NCBI GenBank assembly: GCA_945949525.1
Contig: CAMFES010000010.1
Location: 1-34,650 of the forward strand
DNA length: 34,650 bases
Direction: 5' to 3'
Source of the DNA: an uncultured Veillonellaceae bacterium
GTDB taxonomy: Bacteria; Bacillota; Negativicutes; Selenomonadales; Selenomonadaceae
Of this stretch, positions 3,674 to 34,524 are shown in pieces; position 1 is the stretch's first letter; each line of letters begins with the position of its first letter. A program made the position numbers and the translations under genes. The notes below the pieces were generated by a model. The model was not told the origin of the DNA. It worked only from the letters and a program-made list of their open reading frames with translations, and searched no databases.

Positions 3674-3752
3674 TTTTTCTCCAAACACTCCCACAAAAAT
3701 AATCCATAAATCCTTAGCAACAACAAAAAAATTAAAATTTCAGATTAAGACA

Positions 3753-4556: not shown

Positions 4557-4627
4557 AGTATTACCTCTTTTTGCATTTTAGATTAGAGCCTGCCCTTTCC
4601 CTGCCGCCATGCAGGCACGCCGCAGGG

Positions 4628-5542: not shown

Positions 5543-5621
5543 TCCGTTACCTCACAATTACACATCCAATATCCAACATCCAACCCCGATATCCGGCATC
5601 ACAAATCCGGCTCCGGCAAAA

Positions 5622-6911: not shown

Positions 6912-6925
6912 CTATAACACTCCTT

Positions 6926-7840: not shown

Positions 7841-7855
7841 ACAAACCTCCGGAAA

Positions 7856-8653
7856 CTACATGCAGAAGCGTTCCAGAGCTTCCGCAACCCCATCATGCTC
7901 ATTATCTGTTACCATATAGCGCGCCGCCGCCCTGGCCTCATCGTTGGCATTGCCCATGGCCACGCTGATGGCCACAGAGGTCAGCATGCTGACATCGTTG
8001 CTGGAATCGCCGATGGCCAGCACCTGCTCGGAAGGAATCTCCAGAATCTCAGCCAGCTTTGCTATGGCAGTGGCCTTGTTTACTCCCGGCTTAATCAGCT
8101 CCACATAGGTAGGCGAAGACTTCATAGCATCAATCCTGCCTCCAAACCTCTGACGCACCAGCTCCACAGCCGCATCTGCCTCCTCCGGCGTACTGCCCAT
8201 GATCAGCATCTTCGGCACCTTATAGGTATACTTGTAAATATCCTCTCCTACGGCAGTCCCCGGTACACCGCACATCTTCTGATAGAACTGGGCATGCTCG
8301 TCATTTTCCTTGAAATACAGCTTGTCCTCGCTGTAGAGATGAATATACAGCTCCTGCTCCCCGGCAAAGTCCAAAAGCTCCTTCACCAAATCCTCCTCCA
8401 GATATGAGGCATACAGCTCCTTGCCGGCCGCAGTCTTGATCAGTGCGCCGTTGTAGGTGATAATCGGTACATCCAGCTCCAGCTCCTTTGCATAAGGCAG
8501 GGTAGAAGCATACATGCGTCCGGTGGCAATGGTAAATACCACCCCGGCCTCCACCGCCCGCTTTATAGCATGCTTATTTCCCCTGGAAATCTTATGCTCG
8601 CTGTTTAAAAGTGTACCATCCATATCCGTAACAAACAATTTCGCTTTCATCAT
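7856..8653 (-). CDS. Cof-type HAD-superfamily hydrolase
   Basis: The N-terminal DMDGTLLNSEH motif supplies the catalytic aspartates. The ATGR motif, the Lys in KATAIAKL and the GDSSND motif complete the HAD core. The cap insertion (about residues 85-190) is of the Cof type. Such enzymes dephosphorylate sugar phosphates or flavin intermediates; the substrate cannot be assigned here. The ATG at 8653 is chosen because AGGAG lies five bases before it; a second ATG at 8650 and a TTG at 8656 are alternatives. It is the first gene of the rapZ-yvcK-whiA group and has a predicted promoter directly upstream. Confidence 0.9.
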   Translation of the reverse strand: MMKAKLFVTDMDGTLLNSEHKISRGNKHAIKRAVEAGVVFTIATGRMYASTLPYAKELELDVPIITYNGALIKTAAGKELYASYLEEDLVKELLDFAGEQELYIHLYSEDKLYFKENDEHAQFYQKMCGVPGTAVGEDIYKYTYKVPKMLIMGSTPEEADAAVELVRQRFGGRIDAMKSSPTYVELIKPGVNKATAIAKLAEILEIPSEQVLAIGDSSNDVSMLTSVAISVAMGNANDEARAAARYMVTDNEHDGVAEALERFCM

Positions 8654-8671
8654 CAATTCTCCTTTGTCCTA

Positions 8672-8701
8672 ATCATATACTAATCTGCTATAAAATATCA
8701 A
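8672..8701 (-). promoter_or_regulatory. Predicted promoter of the HAD-rapZ-yvcK-whiA operon
   Basis: On the minus strand TTGATA (8696-8701), an 18-base spacer and TATGAT (8672-8677) lie just before the HAD ribosome binding site. Both boxes match the sigma-70 consensus at five of six positions. Confidence 0.55.
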
Positions 8702-8721
8702 ACACGTAATGAACAATGCCC

Positions 8722-10698
8722 TCACGGGCTGAAGGTAACGGTAACGCTCTGGCCCGGCTGAATCTCCGCGCCAGCCGGGATGCTCTGTCCCCGTGCCAGC
8801 CCGTTGCCCTGCACATCTATGCCCAGACCAAGCTCCGCCAGCTTTCTGGACACATCCCTGATGCTCATGCCGGTCAGGTCAGGCATCCTGACCTTGCCGT
8901 CACTGGCCGCAGGGGCAGGCTTGGCAGCAGCTCCCGCTTCCTTGTCCTTGTTCATATCCGCAAAGGTGTCACTGGAGGGACTGATGTGCATAAACCGCAG
9001 CAGCTGGGAGAAAATATCCCTTGCCACAGGTGCCGCAATCTGCCCGCCGTAAAAGGCTCCCGCCGACGGGTCATCAATCACCACCAGCACCACTATCTCC
9101 GGATTTTCTACCGGCGCAAAGCCACAGAAGGAGGCAATATACCTGCCATCCATGTAACCGCTGGTGTGTTCGTTGATTTTCTGTGCCGTACCGGTCTTGC
9201 CAGCTATGCGATAGCCCTTCACGGCCGCCTTGGAGCCGCCGCCGGTGGCCACCACCTGCTCCAGAAGCCCCACCAGCGTCTTATCGGTAGCCGAATCAAT
9301 CACCCGGCGTACCTCCTCCCGTCCATATTCCTTGTAGACAGAGCCATCCGCATTGGTAATCTGCTTGATGATATGAGGCTTCAGCAGCACACCATCATTG
9401 GCCACGGCTGACATGGCCGTTACCAACTGCAGCGGCGTCACGGCGATACTCTGGCCGATGGCCATGGTGGCCACGTCAGAATTCACCATATTCTTCGGGT
9501 CCGAAAACAAAATACCCGATTCCTCTCCCGGCAGCTCTATCCCCGTGGCCTTGCCAAACCCGAACTTCTCAGCATATTCGTTGAGCTTTTCGCCTCCCAG
9601 CCACAGGCCTATCTGGGCAAAACAGGTGTTGATGGAATTTTTTACGATATCCGTAAAGGTGACATTGCCAAAGCTCTCGCCGTTCCAGTTCTGGATGCGC
9701 TTCTCCGAAACATCAATATGTCCCGGATCATAAAAGGACATGTTGGGAGCCACTACCCCTTCCTGCAGTGCCGTACCTGCCACCATGGCCTTGAAGGTAG
9801 AACCCGGCTCATAAACGGAGGAAATAGCCCTGTTGCGCCAGGCCTCAACATCGGCCTGCCAGAATTTGTTGGGGTTGTAGCTGGGGCGGGACGCCATGGC
9901 CAGCACATCGCCGGTCTTCGGGTCCATGACCACCGCCGTTACCGCCTTCGGCTTGTTATCAGCCATGGCCTTTTCCAGCGCCTGTTCCACGATAAACTGC
10001 ATGGTACTGTCTATGGTCAGGGTAATGCTCTTGGAATTATCCCCCTTGTAGCGCTGCTGAGCCGCTGCAAAGATGGAGTCAAAAATCGGCCTGCCCCGCA
10101 TATCTATCAGGAGGTCGGCCTCCTGGGCCTCTCCCTTCAGCATATCATCCGCATACTGCTCCATTCCGGCAAGGCCCTTGTCGTCAGTGCCGATAAACCC
10201 CAGCACATTGGCCGCCAGCATATCATTGGGATAGTATCTCTTTACCTCGTCATGCAGCTCAAGGCATTCATAGCTGTTGGCCTCCTTCAGTTCCTTGACG
10301 GCGTTTTCCTCATCCACCTCCAGCCGCCGCTTGACGTAAACAAACACGCCTCCCGTATCTATGTCCTCGCGAATCTCCTCCGGCTTCAGCTTCAGTATAT
10401 CCGCCAGCTGCACAGCAAGGTTTTCCCTGTCCTCGCTCCTGACCTTGCTGGGATTGATGACCAGGGATTTTGCCATGCGGCTGATGGCAAGCTCCCGCCC
10501 GTTCCTGTCCAGAATCCTGCCGCGGGGTGACTGCCTGGCCCTGTTTTCCTCCGCTATGGTGATGGCCCTCTCTGCCAGCTCATCGCCGTTCACCAGCTGC
10601 AGCCAGGCAAACCGCATCGTCAGCAGAAAAAAACAGCCCCATATCGCCAGCAACAGCCAGCCGATTCTGTTCTGCACATTGTGCCGCTGCTTCTTCAT
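8722..10698 (-). CDS. Class B penicillin-binding protein with C-terminal PASTA domain (FtsI/SpoVD type)
   Basis: This 658-residue peptidoglycan transpeptidase has one N-terminal transmembrane helix (about residues 11-35) and a dimerisation domain. In the transpeptidase domain the active-site Ser is in STFK (~298), followed by SIN (~355) and KTGTAQ (~501). A single PASTA repeat occupies about residues 595-655 (MPDLTGMSIRDVSRKLAELG), after an Ala-rich linker. The architecture matches SpoVD/FtsI of Firmicutes, but the gene stands outside a division cluster here. The start ATG has GGAG about 11 bases upstream. It could be the septal enzyme or a paralogue; the sequence alone does not decide. Confidence 0.92.
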   Translation of the reverse strand: MKKQRHNVQNRIGWLLLAIWGCFFLLTMRFAWLQLVNGDELAERAITIAEENRARQSPRGRILDRNGRELAISRMAKSLVINPSKVRSEDRENLAVQLADILKLKPEEIREDIDTGGVFVYVKRRLEVDEENAVKELKEANSYECLELHDEVKRYYPNDMLAANVLGFIGTDDKGLAGMEQYADDMLKGEAQEADLLIDMRGRPIFDSIFAAAQQRYKGDNSKSITLTIDSTMQFIVEQALEKAMADNKPKAVTAVVMDPKTGDVLAMASRPSYNPNKFWQADVEAWRNRAISSVYEPGSTFKAMVAGTALQEGVVAPNMSFYDPGHIDVSEKRIQNWNGESFGNVTFTDIVKNSINTCFAQIGLWLGGEKLNEYAEKFGFGKATGIELPGEESGILFSDPKNMVNSDVATMAIGQSIAVTPLQLVTAMSAVANDGVLLKPHIIKQITNADGSVYKEYGREEVRRVIDSATDKTLVGLLEQVVATGGGSKAAVKGYRIAGKTGTAQKINEHTSGYMDGRYIASFCGFAPVENPEIVVLVVIDDPSAGAFYGGQIAAPVARDIFSQLLRFMHISPSSDTFADMNKDKEAGAAAKPAPAASDGKVRMPDLTGMSIRDVSRKLAELGLGIDVQGNGLARGQSIPAGAEIQPGQSVTVTFSP

Positions 10699-10788
10699 CT
10701 ATTATATCACTCCAATAATAACTCATATCCTGTCCTTCCATTTTACACTATATCTTGTCAAAAGCAAAAATTTTTTACAGCAAAACGA

Positions 10789-10818
10789 TTTACAAATTAT
10801 TTATCCTGCTGATATAAT
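10789..10818 (+). promoter_or_regulatory. Predicted promoter of the Lrp/AsnC regulator
   Basis: TTTACA (10789-10794), an 18-base spacer and a perfect TATAAT (10813-10818) lie 26 bases before the start codon, giving a very short leader. Confidence 0.6.
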
Positions 10819-10844
10819 ATAGGTAGAATGGCGGTGATTGTTTT

Positions 10845-11291
10845 ATGGACGCTACAGACAAGCGAATTTTAAAAAGACTACAGGAAAATGCACGCGTCAC
10901 TGTTTCCGTGCTTAGCCAGGAGATTTCCCTCTCCATGCCGGCAATCAGTGAACGCTTGAAGAAGCTGGAAAATACCGGCGTGGTACAGCAGTACACGGCG
11001 ATTTTGGACCCTGCCCTGGTTGACAAGCACCTGATGGCTTTTATCTACATCAGCTTTGACAACCCAAGCAACGGTGACAAATTCAGGGAGTTTATCGCCA
11101 CTGAGATGGACGTAAAGGAATGCTTCTACATCACAGGCGACTATGATTATGCCCTGAAAATCATTACCAAGAGTACAAAAACCCTTGAAAAGCTGCTGAC
11201 ACGCATCAAGAATCAGGATGGCATCGTAAAAACCGAAACCATCGTCGTACTTTCCACGATTACCGACAGGCCTACAATCGAACTTGAATAA
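10845..11291 (+). CDS. Lrp/AsnC family transcriptional regulator
   Basis: A 148-residue protein has an N-terminal helix-turn-helix (DATDKRILKRLQENARVTVSVL..., with SMPAISERLKKLE as recognition region). The C-terminal RAM/AsnC ligand domain (about residues 65-140) includes the CFYITGDYDYALKI segment. Such proteins sense amino acids and often autoregulate. The gene is divergent from the penicillin-binding protein and ends at a strong hairpin terminator, so it is monocistronic. The effector and targets are not visible here. Confidence 0.93.
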   Translation: MDATDKRILKRLQENARVTVSVLSQEISLSMPAISERLKKLENTGVVQQYTAILDPALVDKHLMAFIYISFDNPSNGDKFREFIATEMDVKECFYITGDYDYALKIITKSTKTLEKLLTRIKNQDGIVKTETIVVLSTITDRPTIELE

Positions 11292-20638: not shown

Positions 20639-21517
20639 TCAATGAACTATTCTGCTGTAATTTTTCACTGTCATTATGTCCTTTGGCTGTGCCACAGCCG
20701 CATAAACACTCCTGATGTCCTTATAAAGCTGCTCCTTGCGCTCTGCCGGGGTGTCAGGACTGCGCCATTCTTCATACATGGCATGTGTAGCCCTGTTGGC
20801 GGCAAGGGTTTCCTGTGAATGAATCTGCATCTCGAAATGCACGCCCTGGGCACTGGTAATATCAAGATGGATTGCCTTATAGCGTCCATTAGTATTCAGA
20901 TACTTGTTATCCACCTTTTCCAGCACATAGCCCTTTGTTTGGAGCAGGGAGATGGTCTTGCCGGTCATGGCTGCCATCTGATCATGAGGTACAATCTGGG
21001 TATAGCGTATCAGGTCGCCTGTTTCCTGCACATACTCCACATCGCTTTTAGGCATCCGTCCCTGCCTAATGGCAGTATCCGTCTTGCGCTCTATCTTGCT
21101 CATTATGCTGCTGGCAGTTTTTACTGAATATTCCAGCCCCTCCATGGAAGTCCCCAGCTCATCTGCTATCTCCAGCATATCCATAGTAATGGCAGGCTCG
21201 CTGGCCCTGGCAATATTGTACGCTATCTGTGCCTGCGGCTCGCAGCCTGTCAGAATATAATCATTGTCCGACATACTGCCGGAAACCACAACCTGTCCGG
21301 AACTGTTTCTGTACGGGATACCGCCTAAACGCATCTTATCCATGCTCGCGGAAAAGACACTCTCCCCCAGTGCCATAGCATCAGCAGCTTCTGCAGCTGT
21401 GCAATTATCAAGACTGCAATTCATAGTTGACCATGTAACAGCTGCGGCTATAAGAAGCATGCGCCCCTTACTCAGCCTGTTCAGCCGGGTTACCTTGGCA
21501 ATCTTGTGTAAGTCCAT
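20639..21517 (-). CDS. Secreted protein with RelA/SpoT-like C-terminal domain
   Basis: The 292-residue protein has an N-terminal signal sequence (hydrophobic MLLIAAAVTWSTM, cleavage near AEA/AADA, residues ~20-45). From about residue 125 it shows a RelA/SpoT-type nucleotidyltransferase pattern. A Lys/Ser-containing helix KTASSIMSKI is followed by DLIRYTQIVP, GRYKAIHLDI and FEMQIHSQET, where the Glu corresponds to the catalytic Glu of EIQIRT, then HAMYEEWR. In known members this fold makes (p)ppGpp, or (p)ppApp in the secreted toxin Tas1. The export signal speaks against a normal stringent-response role. A secreted effector or a non-catalytic relative are both possible. The start has AAGGGGGG. 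Confidence 0.65.
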   Translation of the reverse strand: MDLHKIAKVTRLNRLSKGRMLLIAAAVTWSTMNCSLDNCTAAEAADAMALGESVFSASMDKMRLGGIPYRNSSGQVVVSGSMSDNDYILTGCEPQAQIAYNIARASEPAITMDMLEIADELGTSMEGLEYSVKTASSIMSKIERKTDTAIRQGRMPKSDVEYVQETGDLIRYTQIVPHDQMAAMTGKTISLLQTKGYVLEKVDNKYLNTNGRYKAIHLDITSAQGVHFEMQIHSQETLAANRATHAMYEEWRSPDTPAERKEQLYKDIRSVYAAVAQPKDIMTVKNYSRIVH

Positions 21518-21631: not shown

Positions 21632-21702
21632 TTCGTGGACTCTGTTCAGACATTAAAAAGGGGTGAGCAGGGGCAATACCTATAGAAAACACGCTCGCGC
21701 TC
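21632..21702. repeat. Left boundary repeat of the island (inverted copy of 34452-34521)
   Basis: From TTCGTG and CTCTGTTCAGAC through the block around AAAAAGGGGTGAGCAGGGGC to TAGAAAACACGCTCGCGCTC, this ~71-base stretch is nearly identical to the reverse complement of 34452-34521. The two copies enclose the accessory operon. Confidence 0.85.
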
Positions 21703-23081: not shown

Positions 23082-24941
23082 CTACCAAAAACTGAACCCC
23101 TTGAAAAAGCCTCCATCTCTGTTAGATACATTGCCTGCCACAGCATATCTATCCAACAGGCAATTTCTCATGACACAACTGGTCTCCGGCAGAAGTGTGC
23201 AGGCATGGCATGCCGCATAATTCAGTGAAGCATAGCCCTGATTTTTTGACTCACTGCATACCGGATCCGATGAACACCATGAGGCCTCCTGCAACATTGA
23301 GGACACAATTCTACTCATATTTTCTTGTAAAGCATTTCGCACCAAGCCCCCTAAGCTGCCATCAGCATCAGAAGACGATGTATATAACAATATACCCGCC
23401 ATATTTATATCAGAGTCAGGATAACTGCTATATATACGCTCTTTTATCGAAGCACCTGCATAGCCGCATTCCAAAGTAAGCTGCCTGATCAACAGATGGG
23501 ACAATGTATGTAACAGCACATATCTGGCTGAAAAATTTTCACAGCTTACATTGCTGTTCCGCAAATTCTCAAGCATGACATCATAATACCCGGAATTTTT
23601 ATTTTCCCACAACCTGAGTGCTTCCTCATTCATTTGGATAAATATCCCTTCCCCCAACATTTCTATAGCAGGATACCAGCCTAATGGTTTGCTACTCAGA
23701 GGTACTATATCATATTGCAAATTATAGCCTGGAAAAGCATCCATATTGTCTGTATCAGGCGGATCAGGTATCAGCCTGCGAAACCCTCGTAAAGCTAAAA
23801 TTTCCCGTAAGCGCTTTACCTGCACAACCTTGACAAAAAACGGCTGCAGACATTCCGCCACACCTGCTTCCTCAATATGAAACTGCATATCATCGTCATC
23901 TTCATAATGCCCCATGCACAGCACCTTGTATTCATCTTCATACAAGTTCTGTTCCGTATATGCTTCTGATACTTTTATACCTGCCCGGCACTTCAACTGC
24001 TTTACAACTGCCTCCAGCGTATACCTGCCACTATCCAGAAGCTGTCCAAAAATAAGTCTGGCAGCACTGGCAAAATCACTGTCTGATGCATCTGCTGACA
24101 AGCTATAAGACAGCCTGCTCCACTCCTTGTCAACCAGCTGGGCCAAATGTGTACTCCAAGGCGGTATGGTTAAGGCACTAATTGTTTGTGGAAAATACAC
24201 CCCGGTATCTCCTCTGTGCAGTCCCCGCAATTTTGCCCTGCAAGGCTCCGGATCATTGTGCTCATGCCTCAGCCCCAGCCAGGGCCGCCTGCCCTGGCAT
24301 CTATAGCCTTTCAGGGAATCCCACTTCATGCTGCCTGCCATAGAACGCATTGCTCCACAAGCTGAACATTTGATAACAATGCTATCTAATCCGCCACTTT
24401 CATCAGAAAAAGAAATCTGCAAATTACTGCCTTTCAGACCGGCAGCACATTTTGTAAAATCGCCATAATGTACCCACCAATTATATGGAAAGTCCTCGAT
24501 ATGCCCATTGACACAGGCCGCCACAAAGCGTGTCGGTATTATATTTGCATTGCACCTATTGCATTTGCGCCCCTCGTCATCCCCAAAAGCCCAAAAAGGC
24601 ATCAGCCGCTTGCACTTAGGACAAAAATGCATAACCGGAAATCTAAATGCAGGAATATCACAGTTACGCTCCACAGACCGAAAATCACCATCATCTTCCT
24701 CGCTGATATACGGCTGCCGAAATCCTTCCGTATTGAGCAGCTGCTCCAAATTCGCCTCATGCAAAACAGGGCTCTCCGAATTCCAGTAATCAGTGGCAGC
24801 AATCATCACAGAATAATCCGGCATATCAACTATTGAACCACAGCCAAAGGTAGTCACCAGCTGTGCCCGGCGCAGTTTTCCTACCACACGCTTCCTGCTT
24901 TGGACTATCCCTTTCTTTCTCGCACCAAATCTTAATGCCAT
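23082..24941 (-). CDS. drmB: DrmB, DUF1998-containing protein of DISARM-type defence
   Basis: The 619-residue protein has the DrmB pattern. It starts with RRAQLVTTFGCGSIVDMPDYS, followed by zinc-binding cysteines (FCPKCKRLM with CNRCN at about 100-135, and a CSACG pair). The DUF1998 region (about 470-610) includes LLHTLSHLLIRQL, CGYAGASIKERIY and GGLVRNAL, and ends with the cysteine cluster CHACTLLPETSCVMRNCLLDR. In DISARM, DrmA and DrmB form a complex that recognises phage DNA, including DNA with free 5' ends (known). Its RBS overlaps the end of drmA with a 2-base gap, so translation is probably coupled. It is the last gene of the operon. Confidence 0.88.
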   Translation of the reverse strand: MALRFGARKKGIVQSRKRVVGKLRRAQLVTTFGCGSIVDMPDYSVMIAATDYWNSESPVLHEANLEQLLNTEGFRQPYISEEDDGDFRSVERNCDIPAFRFPVMHFCPKCKRLMPFWAFGDDEGRKCNRCNANIIPTRFVAACVNGHIEDFPYNWWVHYGDFTKCAAGLKGSNLQISFSDESGGLDSIVIKCSACGAMRSMAGSMKWDSLKGYRCQGRRPWLGLRHEHNDPEPCRAKLRGLHRGDTGVYFPQTISALTIPPWSTHLAQLVDKEWSRLSYSLSADASDSDFASAARLIFGQLLDSGRYTLEAVVKQLKCRAGIKVSEAYTEQNLYEDEYKVLCMGHYEDDDDMQFHIEEAGVAECLQPFFVKVVQVKRLREILALRGFRRLIPDPPDTDNMDAFPGYNLQYDIVPLSSKPLGWYPAIEMLGEGIFIQMNEEALRLWENKNSGYYDVMLENLRNSNVSCENFSARYVLLHTLSHLLIRQLTLECGYAGASIKERIYSSYPDSDINMAGILLYTSSSDADGSLGGLVRNALQENMSRIVSSMLQEASWCSSDPVCSESKNQGYASLNYAACHACTLLPETSCVMRNCLLDRYAVAGNVSNRDGGFFKGFSFW

Positions 24942-24943
24942 AA

Positions 24944-27900
24944 TTACCTCCCCAGCAGGTAAATTCCTGCCTGCGCATCCACACTGCGTAAACTATTCAT
25001 GGTTCTGAACCTGTTATCTTCCATACTGGCTTGCAGCAGCTGCCTGACACTTTTATGAAAATAATCCTTATACACCAGATCTCCTACCGCCAGTTCTTCC
25101 CATTGCTCTGAAATATCAGCCAATTCCCTGTCTACAGCAGCCACCTCAGCTGGATCAATTTCCTGCACATATTCTAGTATCCACTGCCTGATATTTTCAA
25201 ACTCATTCCGTGACGAATCATAGCGACAAGCAGCTTCATTGGGCAACATGTCCTTCGCCATATACCTGCACAATGAAATATATAAAGCGTGCAACCCCCT
25301 GTCTCTGGCTCTATCCGCAAAAGGTGTCAAGCTAACAGCTTCTACATATCTGTATAGCGCACTATGATATTTCAAAAATTGCTCATAATGTGACCTGTCA
25401 CGGGACCTCCCACCATTATATACCATTGCCACCAATCCCGGATTATCCCTGCCTACGCGACTAGTAGCCTGGATATATTCCGCATTGGTTTTGGGCTGCC
25501 CAGCTACAATCATCGCTCCCAGCCTGCCTACATCAACACCAACGGAGATCATGTTGGATGCCAGCACAAAATCAAATACATCCTTATGCTTTCCCTGCCG
25601 ATAAGCACGTTTCAAGCGATCCTGAATAATGGTAGTAATATCTTCATTGTTCATGCGGCTGGTTAATTCAATCAAATTGTCATAAGGCACAGTTGTATCT
25701 ACATTTTCTGCAATATGGACAAACTTGGTTTTAGCTAAATAGAGGAACCTGCTTTGCACATCGTCCAAAATCTGCGTACTCGTGCCACCCAACTCTCGCA
25801 AACTGTTAAAATATCCTACCAACGTCCAAAAATTATCCACAACAGCATCGGAAAAACCGCTGGCAGCCAAGTACCGCGAGGCAAATAGCAAGGCTGCATT
25901 AGTACGAATCAAAGTAGTGGTAGCAGTTGTACCCACCCCCATCACACCATAGTACATTCTCGCCGGCTTATCGGCCTCAGTTGCCTCAACTGCAAAATAA
26001 GCATCCTTAGCAGATATTCCCTGAGGAGGAAACTGTGTATATTCCCTGCCATAAAGCGCCATAATCTGTTTACCGGCATTCCTTATGGTAGCTGTAGAAG
26101 CAATAACTTTCGCCGGTATTCCGTTGCACTCGCACAATTTTGTAATGACCGCTTCATAGATACCGGCCATAGTGCCAAGGGGCCCCGAAATCAGATGCAA
26201 TTCATCCTGAATAATCAGCTCCGGTGGCTTTTTCCCCCGTCCGATACCAAATAAATTGGCAGGTTTATCACTTAAAGGGATTTGGGCAAACTTGTCCACT
26301 GTTGCCACAACAAAATCAGGCAGATACCTGTATATAGCTTCATCCACAATATGCAGTGGCAGGCCGTTTGCATTTTTGCTAAACTCGCAGTCCTCCCCTG
26401 TACAGGAAATAATCATTCTCTGCCGCTCCATATCCACTGCATAATTATTTACGGTTAACTTCCTGCCACACCAAGGGCATACCTTAATCTGACACGGGTT
26501 AGCAATATCCGTACCTGCAAAATCGCCCTGCTTTTGCTTCTTTATTACAGAACTTGCTTCCTCAATACGATTGGGCGTCAATTTGCCACCTACCCACAGG
26601 CCAATGGAAATTTCCTCGCCGCCCAGCTTATATTTTTGCCGTAGCAGTTCACAAGCGCAAATCAGCATACTGGCCCGTTCAAACTGCTGCAAAGTCAAAA
26701 GCCGCAAGGTGTACCGCATCAATACCGTTACACCATTTTCCTGGCAATTTCTTAAACGACGCAAAAAAATGACAAAAGCAGTTATGCCCAGATAAGCTTC
26801 CGTTTTGCCGCCGCCTGTAGGAAACCATAACAAATCAACCATTTTACGAGCCACACCCTCAGGCTGTATAAAAGATGACAGCTCATGCAAAATAAATGCC
26901 AGCTGAAAAGGGTACCAGTTTATGCTCTGTCCCTCAACACTTCGTCCCGCCTTGATTAGTGTACGTTGCCGCTGCATGAGCATAGCTTCGTTTGCCCATT
27001 GGAATGCCTGCATAGCCTTGTTATCCCCACGGACACTGTTCCTGAGCAGAGTTACTGCCTCCATCATTCGCCTTTCAGCAGCACGGCATTTGGCAATATT
27101 ATTTTCCGCTGTTTCCAGATACTCCTGCTTCAAGGAAACTACACATTCCTGCAGTCCATCTATCCACATCTGGTAAGCATTGATAAATCCTTCTAACTTT
27201 GCCAATACCTCATCCGGCTGTTCATAGGCCAGAAACTGCATGGATAAAACCCGGCTATCCTTGATGCTGGCTGCCATCATCTGATGCAGGTTATAGGACG
27301 GCAGCCATTCAGAACTTACCCAGGCCGGTTCAGGCTGCTCCCTGTCCCAAACAGTTGCACAGCCATGCCCCTGGGCATAGCAACGAATATCATCATACAG
27401 CATAGCCAATTCCTTGACCTCCCTGTCACAAGAAATATTTTCCTGGCAATTAACATCCTCAAAAATACAACTGTTATCTGCAGAAGCAATTTTAAGAGAT
27501 GTCTGAAAAGCGCACAGAGCTGATTTGCCACCTACGTCATCATATCCCTTGCTGACATTGGCATTATACAAGACAGCCGTGATAAGGCGTGCCCCGGAGG
27601 ACAATACGTCATGGGTGTACAGCTGCAGCCGCAATCCATGCTCCAAAGAGAAAAATTCAACCTTCCGGACCGTAGCAATATTTACCTGCTGACAATAGCT
27701 ATAAGGCTGACGCTGCCAAAAGTCCAGCTGCTTTTTCGACTCATTGGTATACTTGGAAATATCTACTCCTGCCTGTGCAGCTTCAGAAGCAGTTATTGGT
27801 TTATAAAAAGCGTAACTTCCTTGTACCACTATCTCCTTAACCCCCGGCTTCAGCAGGCAGGTCACGCCAAAAGAAGCAGGATTGCGCTGATTGCTCAACG

Positions 27901-28123
27901 AAATGGAAGCATCGTACATATCCGCCTCATTTTCCATGATCGAGGCATTCGCCAAATTCAAGGCTTTTTCGCTATCCTGCTGCGGGTATAGCTTGCCCAT
28001 AATATAATACTGGCCGGGAAGCTCTGTCAAAATTTCCCGCTCATCCACCGGTCCCACAAAATCCTTGTACAATAACTCCCCAATAATATTTCTGGCCTCA
28101 TAAAATTCATCATACTTTCCCAT
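24944..28123 (-). CDS. drmA: DrmA, SF2-type helicase of DISARM-type defence
   Basis: The 1059-residue protein is a helicase with Walker A at about residue 430 (WFPTGGGKTEAYLG), a DELH box at about 636 (IIQDELHLISGPLG), motif III STAT at about 674, and a C-terminal helicase domain with NMISVGVDVGRLG, then QATSRVGRDNPG (~890). A zinc-like pair of cysteine motifs (CPWCGRKL and CTGEDC) lies between Walker A and DELH. The DrmB partner directly downstream identifies it as DrmA rather than a generic DEAD/H helicase. The RBS is AAGGTG. In known DISARM, DrmAB moves on DNA and loads the defence complex; here the partners differ. Confidence 0.88.
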   Translation of the reverse strand: MGKYDEFYEARNIIGELLYKDFVGPVDEREILTELPGQYYIMGKLYPQQDSEKALNLANASIMENEADMYDASISLSNQRNPASFGVTCLLKPGVKEIVVQGSYAFYKPITASEAAQAGVDISKYTNESKKQLDFWQRQPYSYCQQVNIATVRKVEFFSLEHGLRLQLYTHDVLSSGARLITAVLYNANVSKGYDDVGGKSALCAFQTSLKIASADNSCIFEDVNCQENISCDREVKELAMLYDDIRCYAQGHGCATVWDREQPEPAWVSSEWLPSYNLHQMMAASIKDSRVLSMQFLAYEQPDEVLAKLEGFINAYQMWIDGLQECVVSLKQEYLETAENNIAKCRAAERRMMEAVTLLRNSVRGDNKAMQAFQWANEAMLMQRQRTLIKAGRSVEGQSINWYPFQLAFILHELSSFIQPEGVARKMVDLLWFPTGGGKTEAYLGITAFVIFLRRLRNCQENGVTVLMRYTLRLLTLQQFERASMLICACELLRQKYKLGGEEISIGLWVGGKLTPNRIEEASSVIKKQKQGDFAGTDIANPCQIKVCPWCGRKLTVNNYAVDMERQRMIISCTGEDCEFSKNANGLPLHIVDEAIYRYLPDFVVATVDKFAQIPLSDKPANLFGIGRGKKPPELIIQDELHLISGPLGTMAGIYEAVITKLCECNGIPAKVIASTATIRNAGKQIMALYGREYTQFPPQGISAKDAYFAVEATEADKPARMYYGVMGVGTTATTTLIRTNAALLFASRYLAASGFSDAVVDNFWTLVGYFNSLRELGGTSTQILDDVQSRFLYLAKTKFVHIAENVDTTVPYDNLIELTSRMNNEDITTIIQDRLKRAYRQGKHKDVFDFVLASNMISVGVDVGRLGAMIVAGQPKTNAEYIQATSRVGRDNPGLVAMVYNGGRSRDRSHYEQFLKYHSALYRYVEAVSLTPFADRARDRGLHALYISLCRYMAKDMLPNEAACRYDSSRNEFENIRQWILEYVQEIDPAEVAAVDRELADISEQWEELAVGDLVYKDYFHKSVRQLLQASMEDNRFRTMNSLRSVDAQAGIYLLGR

Positions 28124-28132
28124 ATTATCACC

Positions 28133-30802
28133 TTAATAAGAATTCTTGCTGCCATAAGCAAAACCACAAATGGAAAATCCCTGCCACATGGCTAATTCAC
28201 CAAAATGTTTAGCTTCTGGCAAATCATCTGCATCAACGGCAATACAGGTCTTTAGGCTGTCTACAAACACATTGCTAAAAACATCAGGATAATACTTAAA
28301 CTTTATCGGATTATTGTTGTGCCAAATTCTATGAAAAGCATTATCCAGGCTCTCCGCAAATTTTTTGCCTGTATAACCTATAATGACATCTGTATATATA
28401 GGACAAATTTTATATACGACATAATTAGCAGTACCTTCCGGGCAACGATATAATTCCAGTTCCTCACCTGGCTCCAGCTTATCCTGTATATAATCCTGCG
28501 CCTCTGCGTTTTGCGCAAAATAAATATCATCAATATCTTCCGGCAAACCTATTTCAATATGAGTCAATGTCTTTAAATTCCAATTTTTTTTCTGAGATTG
28601 TGCACGATAGCAACGCCTGCCCTCATCCGGTGAAATATAAATATATTCCTTATCCAGGCTGACGCGGGCAAGCTGCTTTCTAGCCCTTGTCAAAGCAACA
28701 TACCACACCTTATTTTCCAAGGACGGCTGCTGAGACTTAAAATAATCATCCTGGTCATCCATTCCCATCTGTACATCCCTGGCCAGGAAAACTGAATCAA
28801 ATTCCTGCCCCTTGGCCCGATGAATATTGCTGACTGTAATGGCCGCCTTTTCTTCGTCCGGCTCCCTGAACAATAGCGCATCCTTGGCATTGGTCAGCAA
28901 TCCCCGTAAAATATCCTCGATATAATACGGCGGATTTACATCTTCACGATAAACGCTCAGCAGAGCCTGCCAAAAAACTCTATAGCTATACGCACTGCCA
29001 TAGTAAATGCCCTCATATATTTCTGCAAATTCAGCTTCCGTTATTACATCCCCATCCACTTCTTGCAGAATAAAACCAATCCAACTGGCCAAATCATGAT
29101 TATAGGCAGCTTTTTGCAGATTGTGCTTTACATCAAGATTTCTGAGCCAGGAAGATATTTGCAGTGCCTGGCTATTGGTTCGAGTCAATATGCCCAAAGT
29201 TCCGCCTTGCATATAGCTATCAAAATCATCTTGTTGGGCAGTCTTTAAATTTATTACATCCAATGGCAACTTAGCCAAAATGCTGTCCAATGCTTCTTCC
29301 ATCACCAGCTTATCATCAGCTAAAATAGCTTTTCGATATGGCGCAATTAAATCTGCCAAGGATGCCTCCTGACGACAATTCCTGGTAAAGGAAAAATAAT
29401 TTGCCGCAGGAAAATATGTGAACAACTTATGATAAAACTCTACAGAAGGCATTACAGCCTTGTCCTGGTCAGCCTGATAATCATACAGTGACTGGCAGGC
29501 ATCCCCCAGCAGAGTAAAGCCACACGTCTCCGGTAGCCCTTTAAGAATAGACAATACCAGTTCTGCTCTGACACCAACCAAATCCTGAACCTCATCAACA
29601 ATAATATGTTTGTATTGCTCCAATAAATCCTGATGCTTGTTAAATAATTCTACAGCCAGGCTAATCCTCGTATTGTAATTCAGCTGCCCCAGGACAAAAT
29701 TCGCCGGAAAATCAGCTGCATAGTCTTCCGCATCCTGCAAAACAGCCAGCATATAGGTCACAAAAGAATCAAATGTCCTCACCTCTATTTCACGCCAATT
29801 ATCTGGCAATGCCTCAGCAACATCCAGCAGACGCTCCCTCACTGTTGCCACAGCAGAACGGGAAAAACACAAAACCAGAATTTCACCTGCATCGGCCTGT
29901 TGCTCCACCAACAGCTGCTTCATGCGTTCAATCAATGTCCAAGTTTTACCTGTTCCAGGACCGGCATTGATGATGGTACGCTCCGTCACAGACAGATTAA
30001 TAACCTCTGACTGCTCCACTTCCTTAAATGCATTAAAATCCATTTTCCTGGTAGCAGCTACAGGCTCTGCTTTACTCTCTGACAAAGCAGCAGCCTTCAC
30101 CACAACCGCCTCAGGCTCTGCCTGCACTGCCTGAGCAGCCTGAACTGCTTCCTCTGCCAGCTTGCGCCGCCTGCTTCTACGCCTGCGATGTGCCTGCTCC
30201 GGTTCAGCAGGCTGCGTAGCAGTAACATGTTTTTCCTCGTCAGGTGGTGCAACCGACTCGCCAGGAAGCTGACTTTCCTCAGCAGGCAATACATTCATAT
30301 CAATTGCCGCCTCTGCTGGCTCCATGCTGACAACTTCTGTTGCCGGAGGGATAGCCAACATGTTTGCTGCATCAACTATGCCAGTTTTACTCTGCCCAGC
30401 TTGCTCCATATTATGCCATATAGCCTCAAATCGCGCCGCCTCCGCAGCCTGTTCCTTATTTGCAGCCACAGCTTCCAATTCAGCAGGCTGATAATCCGGA
30501 CGGCACTTGGCAAAATATTGGCAGGACACATTAATGCACCGGCACACCAGCTTATCGCCAATCGTCCCAAAGGGATAATCGCCTTTTATGGCATACAGAC
30601 ATCTGCGCGTAAATTTTTCGTACTCCTGCTGCTGCAGAGCATTGACAAAATTGATGCCATGTTCTTTCAGCAAATTCAAGGCCAGCGGATCATGGACACT
30701 GGCCAGAAAATGCCTGTCTTTATCGTAGGAATATGTTTTGTCATCAATGACCACTTGTAAATTGCTTTTAAAGCCTATGCAGGTATTGCTAATATCTGTC
30801 AT
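28133..30802 (-). CDS. UvrD/Rep-like SF1 helicase with N-terminal cysteine cluster
   Basis: The 889-residue protein has SF1 helicase motifs. Motif I is GPGTGKTWTLIERM (~282), motif II is IIVDEVQDL (~404), then GDACQSLYDYQ, FTRNCRQ, the RAKGQEFDSVFL segment (~664) and VWYVALTRARKQL (~702). The N-terminus (1-110) carries C87-x-C89-x4-C94-x5-C100, possibly a zinc or Fe-S site. It is followed by an Ala/Glu-rich linker (~105-260) with a basic patch RRRRSRRRK. The C-terminal ~150 residues match nothing I recognise. The gene is 9 bases before drmA and 19 after the Hsp70-like gene, so it belongs to the operon. Such a helicase is not part of canonical DISARM. Confidence 0.85.
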   Translation of the reverse strand: MTDISNTCIGFKSNLQVVIDDKTYSYDKDRHFLASVHDPLALNLLKEHGINFVNALQQQEYEKFTRRCLYAIKGDYPFGTIGDKLVCRCINVSCQYFAKCRPDYQPAELEAVAANKEQAAEAARFEAIWHNMEQAGQSKTGIVDAANMLAIPPATEVVSMEPAEAAIDMNVLPAEESQLPGESVAPPDEEKHVTATQPAEPEQAHRRRRSRRRKLAEEAVQAAQAVQAEPEAVVVKAAALSESKAEPVAATRKMDFNAFKEVEQSEVINLSVTERTIINAGPGTGKTWTLIERMKQLLVEQQADAGEILVLCFSRSAVATVRERLLDVAEALPDNWREIEVRTFDSFVTYMLAVLQDAEDYAADFPANFVLGQLNYNTRISLAVELFNKHQDLLEQYKHIIVDEVQDLVGVRAELVLSILKGLPETCGFTLLGDACQSLYDYQADQDKAVMPSVEFYHKLFTYFPAANYFSFTRNCRQEASLADLIAPYRKAILADDKLVMEEALDSILAKLPLDVINLKTAQQDDFDSYMQGGTLGILTRTNSQALQISSWLRNLDVKHNLQKAAYNHDLASWIGFILQEVDGDVITEAEFAEIYEGIYYGSAYSYRVFWQALLSVYREDVNPPYYIEDILRGLLTNAKDALLFREPDEEKAAITVSNIHRAKGQEFDSVFLARDVQMGMDDQDDYFKSQQPSLENKVWYVALTRARKQLARVSLDKEYIYISPDEGRRCYRAQSQKKNWNLKTLTHIEIGLPEDIDDIYFAQNAEAQDYIQDKLEPGEELELYRCPEGTANYVVYKICPIYTDVIIGYTGKKFAESLDNAFHRIWHNNNPIKFKYYPDVFSNVFVDSLKTCIAVDADDLPEAKHFGELAMWQGFSICGFAYGSKNSY

Positions 30803-30821
30803 TGCACGCCGTCACCCACTT

Positions 30822-32273
30822 CTATTTCAACTTGTAGTAAAATTTCAAACCGGCATATTCCCACACCCGTTGAAATTCATCCGCACGCATGGTACTCCTG
30901 ACCAGCACCCGAAATACCCTGTTCTCATCCACTAATGCTTTTACAATGACCTTTTCCTGCAAAAACTTGTACAGTGGCAAATCAATGGAGCGGTATTTGT
31001 CCAAAGAACTGTCTATATCCTGACTGCCGCTAAAAACAAATCTGGCACTACTATCAGGATCTACGATACCAAAGTTGTATTCCTTGTGCCAGTTTTGCAA
31101 ATTGACATCAGTTCCCAGAAGCTCAAAAGGAGTGTTATCTGAGAGCAGCATAGTTACCTGCTGGTTAGAATAATATCCGCCTGGATTTCTTGCCAGCATG
31201 GCTGCCCCTTCCCCCACATTCCACATAGTTTCTTCCGGGTAATACAGCTTGTCTCCATAGATTTTTTCAATTTCTTCCTGGAGAGGGCGCAAATTGCTGC
31301 TGCCACCTACCATCAAAATCCTGTCAATATTAGCTGCTCCCAGCCCTGACTGGCTGATGGTCTGCTGCAGGCAGTCAATAGCCGCCGTAACAAAGGGCTC
31401 CACAATATCCCTGAACCAGTCATACTCCAGAATTTCACGACAGACACCATATTCCCCGTATTTATTGATGTTAAAACGCACTGTATCTGAGTCACTCAGA
31501 GCCCGTTTTGCCTTTTCCGACCGTACCCGCATCACATCCTGCGCCATTGGCGGCATAGCGTCAAAAGCAATTTCCTTGCCCTTGGTACGGGCAATTTTCC
31601 GATGCATTCTGAGGGCAATCTGGCGATCAATTTCATCTCCTGCCTTTTCCATGCCGCCTGTAGCCAGCTCAGCTACCCGCCCCTTCTCATGCCGCAGCAC
31701 GGAAATGTCCAAGGTACCACCGCCCCAGTCAAAGACAACTACATTGGTCGCACTTTTTAAACTATGATAGTTAGCAAAAAAGGCTGCCGTAGATTCGCTG
31801 ACCATGGTATCAATGATAATACCGGCTCTTTGCGCCGCTTCCCGCAATTTAGTCCTTTTCGCCGAACTAAAGCCGATGGGAATGGCCACCGTAGCATGTT
31901 TTAATTCCACCTTATTGCGCCCCGTGACATTATCCTTCAATGTTTTAAAAATTTCTGCTGCAATATCAACCGCATTCCATTCCCTGCCACCAATCTGCCA
32001 GATAGCATCACTATCCAAAATCGTCTTAATAGAGGATATATACTCACATGACTCGCTCAGCTCCATCTGCCTTGCCCAAGCATCACGGCCAGTAAAAACC
32101 TCACCTGTTTTCCTGTCAATAGCCACAACGGAAGGAATTGGCAACCCTTCTTCATCACCATATTTAACAATCTTGGATATACCTTTTAACTTATTTATTC
32201 CTACAACTGCGCTGCTGGTTGTACCAAAGTCAATGCCAAAATATGACTCAAACTCTCTGCCCACTCTCTCCAC
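30822..32273 (-). CDS. Hsp70/DnaK-like ATPase (short C-terminus)
   Basis: The 483-residue protein has the Hsp70 nucleotide-binding domain: phosphate-1 FGIDFGTTSSAVVG near the start, phosphate-2 VVVFDWGGGTLDISVL (~180), and adenosine motif ILMVGGSSNLRPLQEEI (~330). The C-terminal part after ~370 is short (about 110 residues) and unlike the DnaK substrate-binding and lid domains. It is a specialised Hsp70-like protein, not housekeeping dnaK. The start is a GTG; an alternative GTG at 32264 is better placed behind GAGGTGGAG. It follows the coiled-coil gene after 5-14 bases and is tightly linked to it. Confidence 0.87.
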   Translation of the reverse strand: MERVGREFESYFGIDFGTTSSAVVGINKLKGISKIVKYGDEEGLPIPSVVAIDRKTGEVFTGRDAWARQMELSESCEYISSIKTILDSDAIWQIGGREWNAVDIAAEIFKTLKDNVTGRNKVELKHATVAIPIGFSSAKRTKLREAAQRAGIIIDTMVSESTAAFFANYHSLKSATNVVVFDWGGGTLDISVLRHEKGRVAELATGGMEKAGDEIDRQIALRMHRKIARTKGKEIAFDAMPPMAQDVMRVRSEKAKRALSDSDTVRFNINKYGEYGVCREILEYDWFRDIVEPFVTAAIDCLQQTISQSGLGAANIDRILMVGGSSNLRPLQEEIEKIYGDKLYYPEETMWNVGEGAAMLARNPGGYYSNQQVTMLLSDNTPFELLGTDVNLQNWHKEYNFGIVDPDSSARFVFSGSQDIDSSLDKYRSIDLPLYKFLQEKVIVKALVDENRVFRVLVRSTMRADEFQRVWEYAGLKFYYKLK

Positions 32274-32278
32274 CTCAA

Positions 32279-33526
32279 TTAAAACTTCATCCCTGCCTTA
32301 ATGCAGATAGCAAATACATTACGCAACTGATCCCGGAAATTTTCCCCCAAATCAACACTCATATCCATGCCATCTGATTCCATAAAATCAAGATATTCTA
32401 TGCGCAGCTTCGAGCAAAGACTGTTCAAAAATTCCACTGGAGCTTTCTCCGCTTCTACTTTCAGTACATTAATCATCTTCTCCTGCTCCGCTGCATTTTG
32501 CTCCGAGGCAGCTAAACTTGCCTCCAACTTGGCAAGCTCAATTTTATTAGCTTCCAGTAATGCCTGCAAATTTTCAATGGATTCCTCTTTTTGTGCTATT
32601 TTATCCAGATAACTTTTCTTCTCTAGTTCCAGCCTTTCCACCTGCTGCTGTTTCTGCTTGCAAAGCTGCTGCCAGTCTTTGAGTTTCTTCTCATAGCCTG
32701 CAAGAATAGCCTGCACATCCTCCTCTACCTGCTTATCTTCTTTATCAGCCGCACTATTGCCATTATCATTTTTAGAAACAGTCTTTGCATTTTGAGGCAT
32801 AGCCAGTTCTTTGTCATTGGATTTGTTTTCTTTCACAGATTGTACCGGCTTTGCTTGCTTCTCTGCTGACTGCAACACCTGCTCCTCTATGGCCTGTGAC
32901 TGCTCCAGCACAAACCAATTTTCAAGCATCTCCATTTTTTTCTGGCAAGCTATATCCATTTTTGAAAAATCATACTGCTTTTTTAGCTGAGCAATAAATT
33001 GGTTGAAGTTACGCATTGCCCCCATCTGAAGCCCTGCCTTATTTAACACATCAGCCGTAGGCAAAACAACATCGCTATTTAAATTTTTAAGGAACTGCTC
33101 AACATACTTAGGTGCATTGCCATCCAGTTTCTTTTCCTTATTCATGACAACTGTTGGAATACGCATGATTATTGCTACCAATAATTCTGCCTCTTTATGC
33201 TGGTCATTCAAGCACAAACCAAAGAGGGAAAATACCATACGGGCTGTTTCTGTAGTCTTTTTGCCGTATAGATTTCCCCTGGCAAACCTATGAAAAACAT
33301 CAACCGAATTTTTAGCATGACATATATATTCTTTCAAGGGTTTTGCCCCACAAAACTTTAAACCATCGTATATATACTTCTCAGTTGCATCAGAAAATCC
33401 TTCTGCCTGCAGCATTTCCGTCAAAACCTGTTCATACAACTTCTTATCAGCAACTTTAAGCTTAGAGCTTGATTTTGTCTTAGTGGCTTGCAAAATCTTA
33501 TCCAATACTTCTTTACAATTAGCCAT
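32279..33526 (-). CDS. Coiled-coil protein of unknown function, possible partner of the Hsp70-like protein
   Basis: The ATG at 33526 has GGAGGG upstream (415 residues). The N-terminal ~200 residues are helical with no recognised family. A Lys/Asn/Gln-rich linker follows, then a long coiled coil (about 270-365, heptad-like KKLKDWQQLCKQKQQQVERLELEKKSYLDKIAQKE in pieces). The C-terminal ~45 residues (EYLDFMESDG, FRDQLRNVFAICIKAGMKF) recall the tail of GrpE-like exchange factors, where a coil precedes a small domain; this is inference. Placement directly before the Hsp70-like gene fits a dedicated co-chaperone or adaptor. Confidence 0.75.
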   Translation of the reverse strand: MANCKEVLDKILQATKTKSSSKLKVADKKLYEQVLTEMLQAEGFSDATEKYIYDGLKFCGAKPLKEYICHAKNSVDVFHRFARGNLYGKKTTETARMVFSLFGLCLNDQHKEAELLVAIIMRIPTVVMNKEKKLDGNAPKYVEQFLKNLNSDVVLPTADVLNKAGLQMGAMRNFNQFIAQLKKQYDFSKMDIACQKKMEMLENWFVLEQSQAIEEQVLQSAEKQAKPVQSVKENKSNDKELAMPQNAKTVSKNDNGNSAADKEDKQVEEDVQAILAGYEKKLKDWQQLCKQKQQQVERLELEKKSYLDKIAQKEESIENLQALLEANKIELAKLEASLAASEQNAAEQEKMINVLKVEAEKAPVEFLNSLCSKLRIEYLDFMESDGMDMSVDLGENFRDQLRNVFAICIKAGMKF

Positions 33527-33573
33527 AATTCCCTCCATAAAAACACTTTTCATGCAACTTACCAGATTGCTGC

Positions 33574-34092
33574 TCAGATAATCTCTATCTGGCACATCTT
33601 CATAGCATTTAAGGCATTGATGTGGCTTTCAGCCGTAACACCTGCACAACAGGTGCTGTCAATCCTTATCTTAATTTCTGGAAAAAATGCTTTTAGGAGC
33701 ATGGCATTGGATATGACGCAGATATCCGTACACAGGCCTCCCAGGGTAATTTCATCATAACCCGCAGCAATCTCCTGCCAGCCGGTATACCCAAAAGAAG
33801 GTTTCTCCACAATAGCAACAGCTTTTTCTGCAAACTCCTGCAAAACTTCCGCTATCTGCCAGCCATCTGTACCTTTGATACAATGCTGCACCGGCAGATT
33901 TTTTCCCTCCTGAGTCTCCAGATAATTACTCCCATGCGTGTCCATAGTAAATACAATATCTGTATCTTTCCTTATCTGGATTTCTGCCAAACGCTCAGCC
34001 ATACGCGGCAGCATTTCCTGAGCTTCTTTAGTACCTAGGCTACCATCAATAAAATCTTTCTGCATATCCACAGCCACATATAGTTTTTTCAT
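33574..34092 (-). CDS. Nicotinamidase/isochorismatase-family cysteine hydrolase
   Basis: The 172-residue protein has the Asp-Lys-Cys triad of the family: D9 in VDMQKDF, K97 in VEKPSF and C121 in GGLCTDICV. Metal-ligand candidates typical of nicotinamidase PncA are in FTMDTHG (D51, H53), plus H70 in PVQHCIKGTDGW. The likely reaction is hydrolysis of nicotinamide to nicotinate in NAD salvage. It is the first gene of the defence operon, behind its promoter with AGGGAGAGG, and 47 bases before the coiled-coil gene. Whether it belongs to the defence function or is a passenger is open. Confidence 0.88.
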   Translation of the reverse strand: MKKLYVAVDMQKDFIDGSLGTKEAQEMLPRMAERLAEIQIRKDTDIVFTMDTHGSNYLETQEGKNLPVQHCIKGTDGWQIAEVLQEFAEKAVAIVEKPSFGYTGWQEIAAGYDEITLGGLCTDICVISNAMLLKAFFPEIKIRIDSTCCAGVTAESHINALNAMKMCQIEII

Positions 34093-34325: not shown

Positions 34326-34524
34326 TCTGTTCAGACTAAGAGAGGGGCGAGTTGGGGCTGTACCTATAGAAAACCTTTGTTGTGCCTCGGTGCTTAGCGA
34401 TACGCGAGCTGAAAGCGAAGCGTGAGCTTAGCATCCGCTAGGCGCAATGAGGAGCGCGAGCGTGTTTTCTATAGGTATTGCCCCTGCTCACCCCTTTTTA
34501 TGTCTGAACAGAGTGCACGAAGCA
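34326..34524. repeat. Long palindromic element (repeat region C) at the right island boundary
   Basis: The left arm (34326-34374) and right arm (34464-34512) are reverse complements over about 49 bases, from TCTGTTCAGAC to CTATAGAAAAC. The core carries GCCTCGGTGCTTAGCGATACGCGAG, split here as GCCTCGGTGCTTAG and GATACGCGAG, plus CTTAGCATCCGCTAGGCG and GAGCGCGAGCGTG, as in repeat A2. The right arm with its flank is the inverted copy of 21632-21702. The stretch 34172-34325 before it has one small hairpin (ATCTCCCC/GGGGAGAT, 34243-34264) and no gene. Confidence 0.85.

Follow-up and report, generated by a model that had tools for sequence, protein, structure and literature searches.

Gene layout of the array

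We analysed a 34,650-bp stretch of DNA (the window), which is one complete contig (CAMFES010000010.1) of the draft genome (83% complete) of an uncultured Veillonellaceae bacterium. Six open reading frames (ORFs) on its minus strand occupy positions 34092 to 23082. They encode an isochorismatase-fold hydrolase, a coiled-coil protein (CC), a dedicated Hsp70, a UvrD-family helicase and DrmA and DrmB, the latter two related to the defence island system associated with restriction-modification (DISARM). The five genes from CC to DrmB, here called the array, are conserved together in other genomes. The features are:

33574..34092, minus strand: isochorismatase-fold hydrolase, probable passenger (PF00857, 72 bits)
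32279..33526 (or 33595), minus strand: CC; its relatives precede Hsp70 in other arrays
30822..32273, minus strand: dedicated Hsp70 (PF00012, 130 bits; hhalign match to DnaK; own clade)
28133..30802, minus strand: UvrD-family superfamily 1 helicase with an N-terminal adapter and a HIRAN-like C-terminal domain (PF00580, PF13361)
30480..30802, minus strand: adapter domain of the UvrD protein, about residues 1-108, defined by a hidden Markov model (HMM) of 27 arrays
28136..28600, minus strand: C-terminal domain of the UvrD protein, HIRAN-like by AlphaFold2 model and structural matches
24944..28123, minus strand: DrmA, short form, a YprA-family superfamily 2 helicase (NF038325; match to 7s9v)
23082..24941, minus strand: DrmB, a DUF1998/MZB protein (NF038324; PF09369)

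All six ORFs were recovered where they had first been placed by a sequence-only reading of this DNA, and the gaps of 2-47 bp reported there agree with the coordinates. The intergenic distances are 47, 5, 19, 9 and 2 bp, provided that CC starts at the ATG at 33526. This start has a GGAGGG ribosome site, and the alternative GTG start at 33595 overlaps the preceding gene. A sigma-70-like site (10/12) is located 50 bp upstream of the isochorismatase-fold gene, and a single promoter for the six genes is plausible from the sequence.

The assignment of DrmA and DrmB made in the sequence-only reading is confirmed, as both proteins pass their NCBIfam cut-offs. DrmA reaches 964.5 bits against a cut-off of 950 (DISARM_DrmAS, NF038325) and DrmB 485 bits against 240 (DrmB_fam, NF038324), with a further match of DrmB to PF09369. 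DrmA matches the solved DrmA from Serratia (7s9v) with E = 5e-145, and PADLOC identifies the window helicase as DrmA, not DruE. The UvrD protein exceeds the Pfam cut-offs for PF00580 and PF13361, and Walker A, Walker B and the C-terminal helicase domain are present; among the array proteins, the motif GPGTGKT is largely invariant and DEVQD fully invariant. The Hsp70 is above the Pfam cut-off and contains the nucleotide-binding domain. A DNA methyltransferase, DrmC, DrmD and DrmE, reported missing before, are indeed absent among the matches listed for the whole contig (Pfam, PADLOC).

Conservation of the five genes

With the window Hsp70 alone as query, no relative was found in the genome contigs. 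A profile of three Hsp70s recovered 79 loci from genome contigs and another 6 from viral ones. The test set was limited to the 30 loci in which Hsp70 scored 250 or higher and 8 kb or more of DNA followed the gene. The sequence-only reading had named a search for the gene set in other genomes as its refuting test, and the set was found again: UvrD, DrmA and DrmB lie downstream of Hsp70 in 25 of the 30 loci. The gene order is kept at 25 further loci, even where identity to the window protein drops to 27% (Hsp70) or 35% (DrmA). In two genomes from the window's own family (G228 and G210), CC, Hsp70, UvrD, DrmA and DrmB appear in the same order between unrelated genes, and the identity to the window is 48-57% for Hsp70, DrmA and DrmB. 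The coiled-coil gene precedes Hsp70 in the arrays with operon-size spacing; in distant arrays, where its profile match is not significant, it was assigned by place, length and C-terminal sequence. The hosts cover several Bacillota families and include Lachnospiraceae, Selenomonadales, Eubacterium, Paenibacillus, Clostridium, an actinobacterial bin and Gastranaerophilales bins, among others; cultured examples are Eubacterium coprostanoligenes ATCC 51222 (L080) and Paenibacillus sp. 1_12 (L088).

The phylogenies of the components agree with each other. Patristic distances correlate between Hsp70 and DrmA (r = 0.93) and between DrmA and DrmB (r = 0.91), values that none of 2000 permutations reaches. 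The DrmA proteins of the arrays form one clade with a support of 0.999, outside which fall two annotated class 1 DISARM DrmAs. Of 36 DrmA loci without an Hsp70 of this kind, a single one (G002, discussed below) is located inside the clade. Since UvrD, Hsp70 and CC accompany drmAB in other genomes, keep their order there and have concordant trees, CC, Hsp70, UvrD, DrmA and DrmB almost certainly constitute one functional unit.

The isochorismatase-fold gene does not share this conservation, as no matching ORF is present at any other array locus. Its match to a nicotinamidase, the earlier designation, is weak and scores far under the NCBIfam threshold. The gene is probably a passenger, and the unit would then have five genes, not six. 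Of the original proposal that six genes form one anti-phage system, the conserved five-gene unit and a likely role in defence stand, and the nicotinamidase is excluded.

The guanine-cytosine (GC) content of the array is 44.8%, compared with 51.9% in the first 20.6 kb of the window, and one closely related array is found on a contig classed as viral; for these reasons the array looks mobile. The distribution of DrmA is patchy, with any DrmA match in 17 of 200 relatives.

A gene for a NERD nuclease-helicase directly follows DrmB in 11 of 24 relatives. Other genes were seen at this position: in L074 (19105-21210) a UvrD helicase with an N-terminus that is RelE-like by eye and recalls ArmD of ARMADA type II, and in L093 (15748-17856) a reverse transcriptase gene (PF00078) 50 bp after DrmB.

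Hsp70 and the coiled-coil protein

The array Hsp70 aligns by hhalign to the DnaK of relatives over residues 10-461 with its ATPase motifs retained; GIDFGTT, SIKT, DWGGGT and GGSS line up with DnaK. In the region of the substrate-binding beta domain, where the alignment reaches residue 461 of 483, similarity is low, and this domain appears to be reduced. The alpha-helical lid is missing, the protein stopping at residue 483, shortly past the beta domain. In the tree, the Hsp70s of the arrays form their own clade, apart from DnaK.

CC consists of a helical N-terminal region, a long coiled coil and a conserved C-terminal motif, EYxDF...LGENxRxQLxxxF; one relative is devoid of the N-terminal region. 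Its AlphaFold2 model, built from three sequences, is mostly helical and has a low-confidence mean predicted local distance difference test (pLDDT) score of 68.6, and it was left out of the fold searches. CC has no Pfam match, and neither CC nor Hsp70 matches any model of PADLOC-DB 2.0.0, so that surveys with this database would miss the array or call it an incomplete DISARM.

A protein of about 1000 residues is encoded directly before CC in L082 (5484-8609), L083 (5647-8694), L088 (5649-8681) and L094 (5558-8476); a copy in L097 (5708-8680) is recognised by size and place only. The proteins of L088 and L094 have no Pfam or PADLOC match. This protein, present in some DrmAB and DruE arrays, is a possible further component.

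An adapter shared with other effectors

The UvrD proteins of the arrays begin with an adapter of about 106 residues, defined by two "SN" motifs at the N-terminus followed by a DxxF helix region. A cysteine cluster, CRCxxxxCxxFxxC, is found in nearly all of them. The adapter HMM also detects free-standing small proteins encoded directly after Hsp70 in L094 (E = 2e-12), L096 (5e-9) and L095 (8e-7). The next large gene is DruE in L094 and L095, and in L096 it encodes an unscanned protein of 1932 residues. Matches to the adapter profile were found only beside Hsp70s of this type, and a search of PDB sequences with the profile gave none. Short ORFs with an adapter-like start, judged by eye, follow Hsp70 in L107, L108, L110-L114, L119, L121 and L134.

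The locus G002, from the window's genus, carries UvrD with its C-terminal domain, DrmA, DrmB and a NERD-like helicase. CC, Hsp70 and the adapter are absent, with a Vsr-like gene in their place. CC, Hsp70 and the adapter left G002 together, on a contig that ends 0.8 kb upstream of UvrD, beyond which a displaced copy of the module could lie. An EVE domain suspected by eye at the N-terminus of the G002 UvrD protein was dropped for lack of a Pfam match.

Several loci combine the Hsp70 with other partners. DruE-linked Hsp70s are placed at several points of the Hsp70 tree, some among the DrmAB-linked ones, in a tree with some weakly supported nodes. DruE itself was seen only in sister loci, among them L094, L095 and L110. 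More distant Hsp70s of the clade adjoin DUF1156 or helicase loci. The simplest reading of these sequences is that CC, Hsp70 and the adapter may be a regulatory module passed from one effector to another, most of these effectors being YprA-family members. The sequence-only reading had four genes taking the place of the missing DISARM components; the number is better given as three, and Hsp70, CC and the adapter look like a module shared with other effectors. More tentatively, CC, Hsp70 and the Cys-rich adapter could be a portable chaperone module for sensing or licensing that serves UvrD-DrmAB, DruE and, by neighbourhood, further helicase or DUF1156 loci, the helicases being released by the Hsp70 cycle and not by DNA methylation.

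Two further arrangements were observed. L086 (Thermosyntropha lipolytica, 3194-11211) contains CC and Hsp70 with an adapter-HIRAN protein that has no helicase core, and continues with a phospholipase D (PLD) protein and two large proteins that are AddB- and UvrD-like by eye, another type of effector. The alphaproteobacterial L133, L122, L126, L130 and L152 represent a remote form of the module, with a zinc-finger-like protein, a coiled-coil-like protein and an Hsp70 whose tail is rich in Cys; in L133 a DUF1156 protein comes before these.

The C-terminal domain of the UvrD protein

The C-terminal domain comprises about 155 residues and is predicted by AlphaFold2 with a mean pLDDT of 92.5. In a structural realignment, for which a Z below 8 is not taken as proof, the six best rows are of HIRAN type and include lp_0118 (Z 7.8), which we take to be a HIRAN protein, three HLTF HIRAN chains (4.4-4.7) and Rad5 (4.1). 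The best unrelated chain has a Z of 2.9, below all six. At the sequence level, no Pfam match to HIRAN was obtained in 15 C-terminal domains, and Foldseek returned no match with E below 0.001. As judged by the best matches of the model, the domain would have a HIRAN-like fold; the agreement of the six top rows, together with the fact that HIRAN had been guessed before the realignment, raises our belief in it. HIRAN domains bind 3' single-stranded DNA (ssDNA) ends (PMC6213728).

Proposed mechanism and alternative explanations

The array is very probably an anti-phage defence, as far as gene content and sequence can tell. In the mechanism that we propose, DrmAB would load on ssDNA or 5' overhangs in the way seen for the solved Serratia DrmAB, which is autoinhibited and opens on these substrates (Bravo 2022, PMC9142583). 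The HIRAN-like domain would bring the UvrD protein to 3' ends. The targets of the two motors, working with opposite polarities, would be replication intermediates or exposed ends of phage DNA. The minimal array has no nuclease; the NERD nuclease-helicase in about half of the relatives, and host nucleases elsewhere, would finish the reaction. Hsp70 and CC would act on the helicase via the adapter, serving as a dedicated switch powered by ATP. This switch would keep the effector inactive or immature and license it when infection supplies competing clients, which may be misfolded or assembling phage proteins.

We assign a probability of about 0.5 to this overall interpretation, a five-gene defence of the YprA/DISARM kind that would attack ends from both polarities under the control of an Hsp70-CC switch. 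Its parts differ in strength. That the effector is directed at DNA ends or ssDNA is fairly likely; the odds are about even that Hsp70-CC regulates the effector, or senses for it, through the adapter; that competing phage clients trigger the release is a guess, and a doubtful one. Related observations exist for other systems: DruE engages replication intermediates that contain ssDNA, with activation believed to be decided by its partner proteins (PMC13192584), DnaJ takes part in phage sensing with bNACHT25 (PMC12169576), and Hsp70-GrpE pairs are found in GTPase conflict systems (PMC7159879). The sequence-only reading had suggested recognition of DNA ends or replication structures. The predicted HIRAN-like domain gives end recognition some support, and a DNA-structure cue is not new, having already been proposed for DrmAB (Bravo 2022, PMC9142583).

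Several points weigh against the proposed mechanism. The switch role of Hsp70 is drawn from gene association and domain architecture, and a folding aid is also conceivable. CC has no detectable relation to GrpE (hhalign probability 6.5%), and the idea of a GrpE-type exchange factor was provisionally set aside for this reason. The HIRAN assignment is a fold match with Z below 8, for which Pfam gives nothing. The agreement between trees may partly stem from common host ancestry, and the array sample was gathered through the Hsp70 profile. Finally, about 7 of 24 relatives encode a C5 methyltransferase no more than three genes away from the array.

The folding role leads to the first alternative, in which Hsp70 and CC are assembly chaperones for a large helicase complex and sense nothing. 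Against it, other UvrD-DrmA-DrmB loci do without Hsp70, and G002 keeps its helicases without CC, Hsp70 and adapter. The direct position of the chaperone pair before the helicases, the retained ATPase site and the fusion of the adapter to the presumed client all fit an assembly function; that DruE and other effectors are also paired with the module suits regulation at least equally. We consider the assembly explanation unlikely.

Methylation offers a second alternative. Here, a C5 methyltransferase of a near or distant restriction-modification locus would mark self, DrmAB would attack unmethylated DNA, and Hsp70 and CC would be accessory. A Pfam scan of the 105 proteins encoded within three genes of 23 arrays found 7 C5 methyltransferases, 3 Vsr proteins and HpaII and EcoRII endonucleases (a motif search had found 4 methyltransferases and missed others). 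The linkage is close in L082, with a methyltransferase 2 bp behind DrmB, and in L072, with a methyltransferase-endonuclease-Vsr run ahead of CC. In the window's genome, C5-methyltransferase genes lie on a different contig. Against this alternative, no methyltransferase appears in the sequence retrieved around most arrays, among them L075 and L081, for which the flanks span about 10 kb on the upstream side and several kb on the downstream side. Where one is present, its position and orientation differ between arrays. An adjacent endonuclease, moreover, makes a complete type II system that alone accounts for the methyltransferase. We regard this explanation as rather improbable. The claim of self/non-self discrimination without host methylation is thus supported in part, by the lack of a linked methylase in the window, L075 and L081, and opposed by the methyltransferases near about 7 of 24 relatives; methylation-independent discrimination is possible.

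A role in DNA repair instead of defence, as in the MrfAB branch of the YprA family, is very unlikely. DrmA and DrmB exceed the DISARM model cut-offs, and the sparse occurrence of DrmA among relatives, the lower GC content and the copy on a viral-classed contig argue for defence, as do the array neighbours in relatives, which include AbiEii, type II restriction genes, Vsr and reverse transcriptase. Repair would be compatible with the enzymatic parts besides the chaperone all being helicases and with the nuclease-free minimal array. A chance neighbourhood of unrelated genes, true to the extent that the isochorismatase-fold gene is unconserved, is refuted for the other five genes by their constant order at the 25 further loci.

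Relation to known systems

The array resembles DISARM classes 1 and 2 in its adjacent DrmA and DrmB, both above the model cut-offs, and in its tendency to adjoin restriction-modification genes. It differs in having, among the matches listed for the window, no DrmC, DrmD, DrmE or methyltransferase, in the addition of CC, Hsp70 and the adapter-UvrD-HIRAN protein, and in a DrmA clade apart from the two annotated class 1 systems. DrmC, a phospholipase D nuclease, is often missing in accepted DISARM loci.

Loci with UvrD directly before drmAB also exist without the Hsp70, on plasmids of Azospirillum, Tsukamurella and Rhizobium (L033-L035, L040), several with NERD or another helicase behind. In contrast to the array, these have no CC, Hsp70 or adapter, and their DrmA proteins belong to other branches. 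We found no name for such loci in the literature. These loci are another DISARM-like class, and some of them adjoin Dcm/Vsr/DUF2357 cassettes. Many classes within the DISARM-like clade are stated to be uncharacterised, and ARMADA, BRIGADE and TALON have been described (Bell 2025, PMC12458937); the main text of that study makes no mention of Hsp70.

With Druantia and ARMADA the array shares the YprA-family helicase core and, in L094 and L095, an Hsp70-adapter pair before DruE. ARMADA type II includes a GajB-like UvrD helicase (PMC12458937). Unlike these systems, the window has split DrmA and DrmB and no BrxHII, PglX or DruE. CoCoNuT (coiled-coil nuclease tandem) and NxD McrBC systems also have defence operons that bring together Hsp70 homologues and coiled coils, but there the Hsp70 is part of a fusion with McrB or McrC homologues and is considered a poor ATPase (PMC11090510), whereas the array Hsp70 is separate and keeps its ATPase motifs, and no McrB-type GTPase occurs among the array proteins. 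Chaperone machinery is likewise part of immunity in GTPase conflict systems with HSP70-GrpE and in bNACHT25 with DnaJ (PMC7159879, PMC12169576), which have other effectors, and from which the array differs by a CC with no detectable GrpE relation.

An Hsp70 joined with DrmA, or this gene set, was not found in the openly searchable literature, which leaves aside subscription papers and some preprints. The effector is of a known kind, and the CC-Hsp70-adapter module is possibly novel; the predicted Cys-rich adapter and HIRAN-like domain also appear to be new on the UvrD protein. If the proposed mechanism is correct, DISARM-like immunity gains a sensor layer built from a household chaperone fold, which can be cloned from cultured hosts. 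Two questions would become testable: how YprA-family helicases spare the host chromosome without a linked methylase, and by what wiring a single helicase core responds to different triggers. The adapter would give chaperone and helicase a short site of contact that can be mutated, and a possible 3'-end-binding helicase would join the 5'-overhang-binding DrmAB.

Surroundings of the array

The remaining 18 main ORFs of the window have housekeeping functions (Pfam, PADLOC), including WhiA, RapZ, CofD, Tex and CobT-type genes, the Pfam matches listed for them being the first 25 of 40 families. The contig ends 558 bp before the isochorismatase-fold gene, with an intergenic repeat and no ORF of at least 90 residues in this end stretch. 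A dispersed intergenic repeat with about 50 matches in the genome is located at 21638-21702 and 34326-34514 and looks like a repetitive extragenic palindromic (REP) or miniature inverted-repeat transposable element (MITE) type; one inverted pair of it brackets the array. The inverted repeats at 21654-21702 and 34452-34500 were considered as ends of a mobile element and rejected, given the roughly 50 genome matches of the sequence. The protein encoded at 20639-21517 (minus strand) has a C-terminal part with weak resemblance, far below the cut-off, to the PRK09169/XopAD family, and a signal-like N-terminus.

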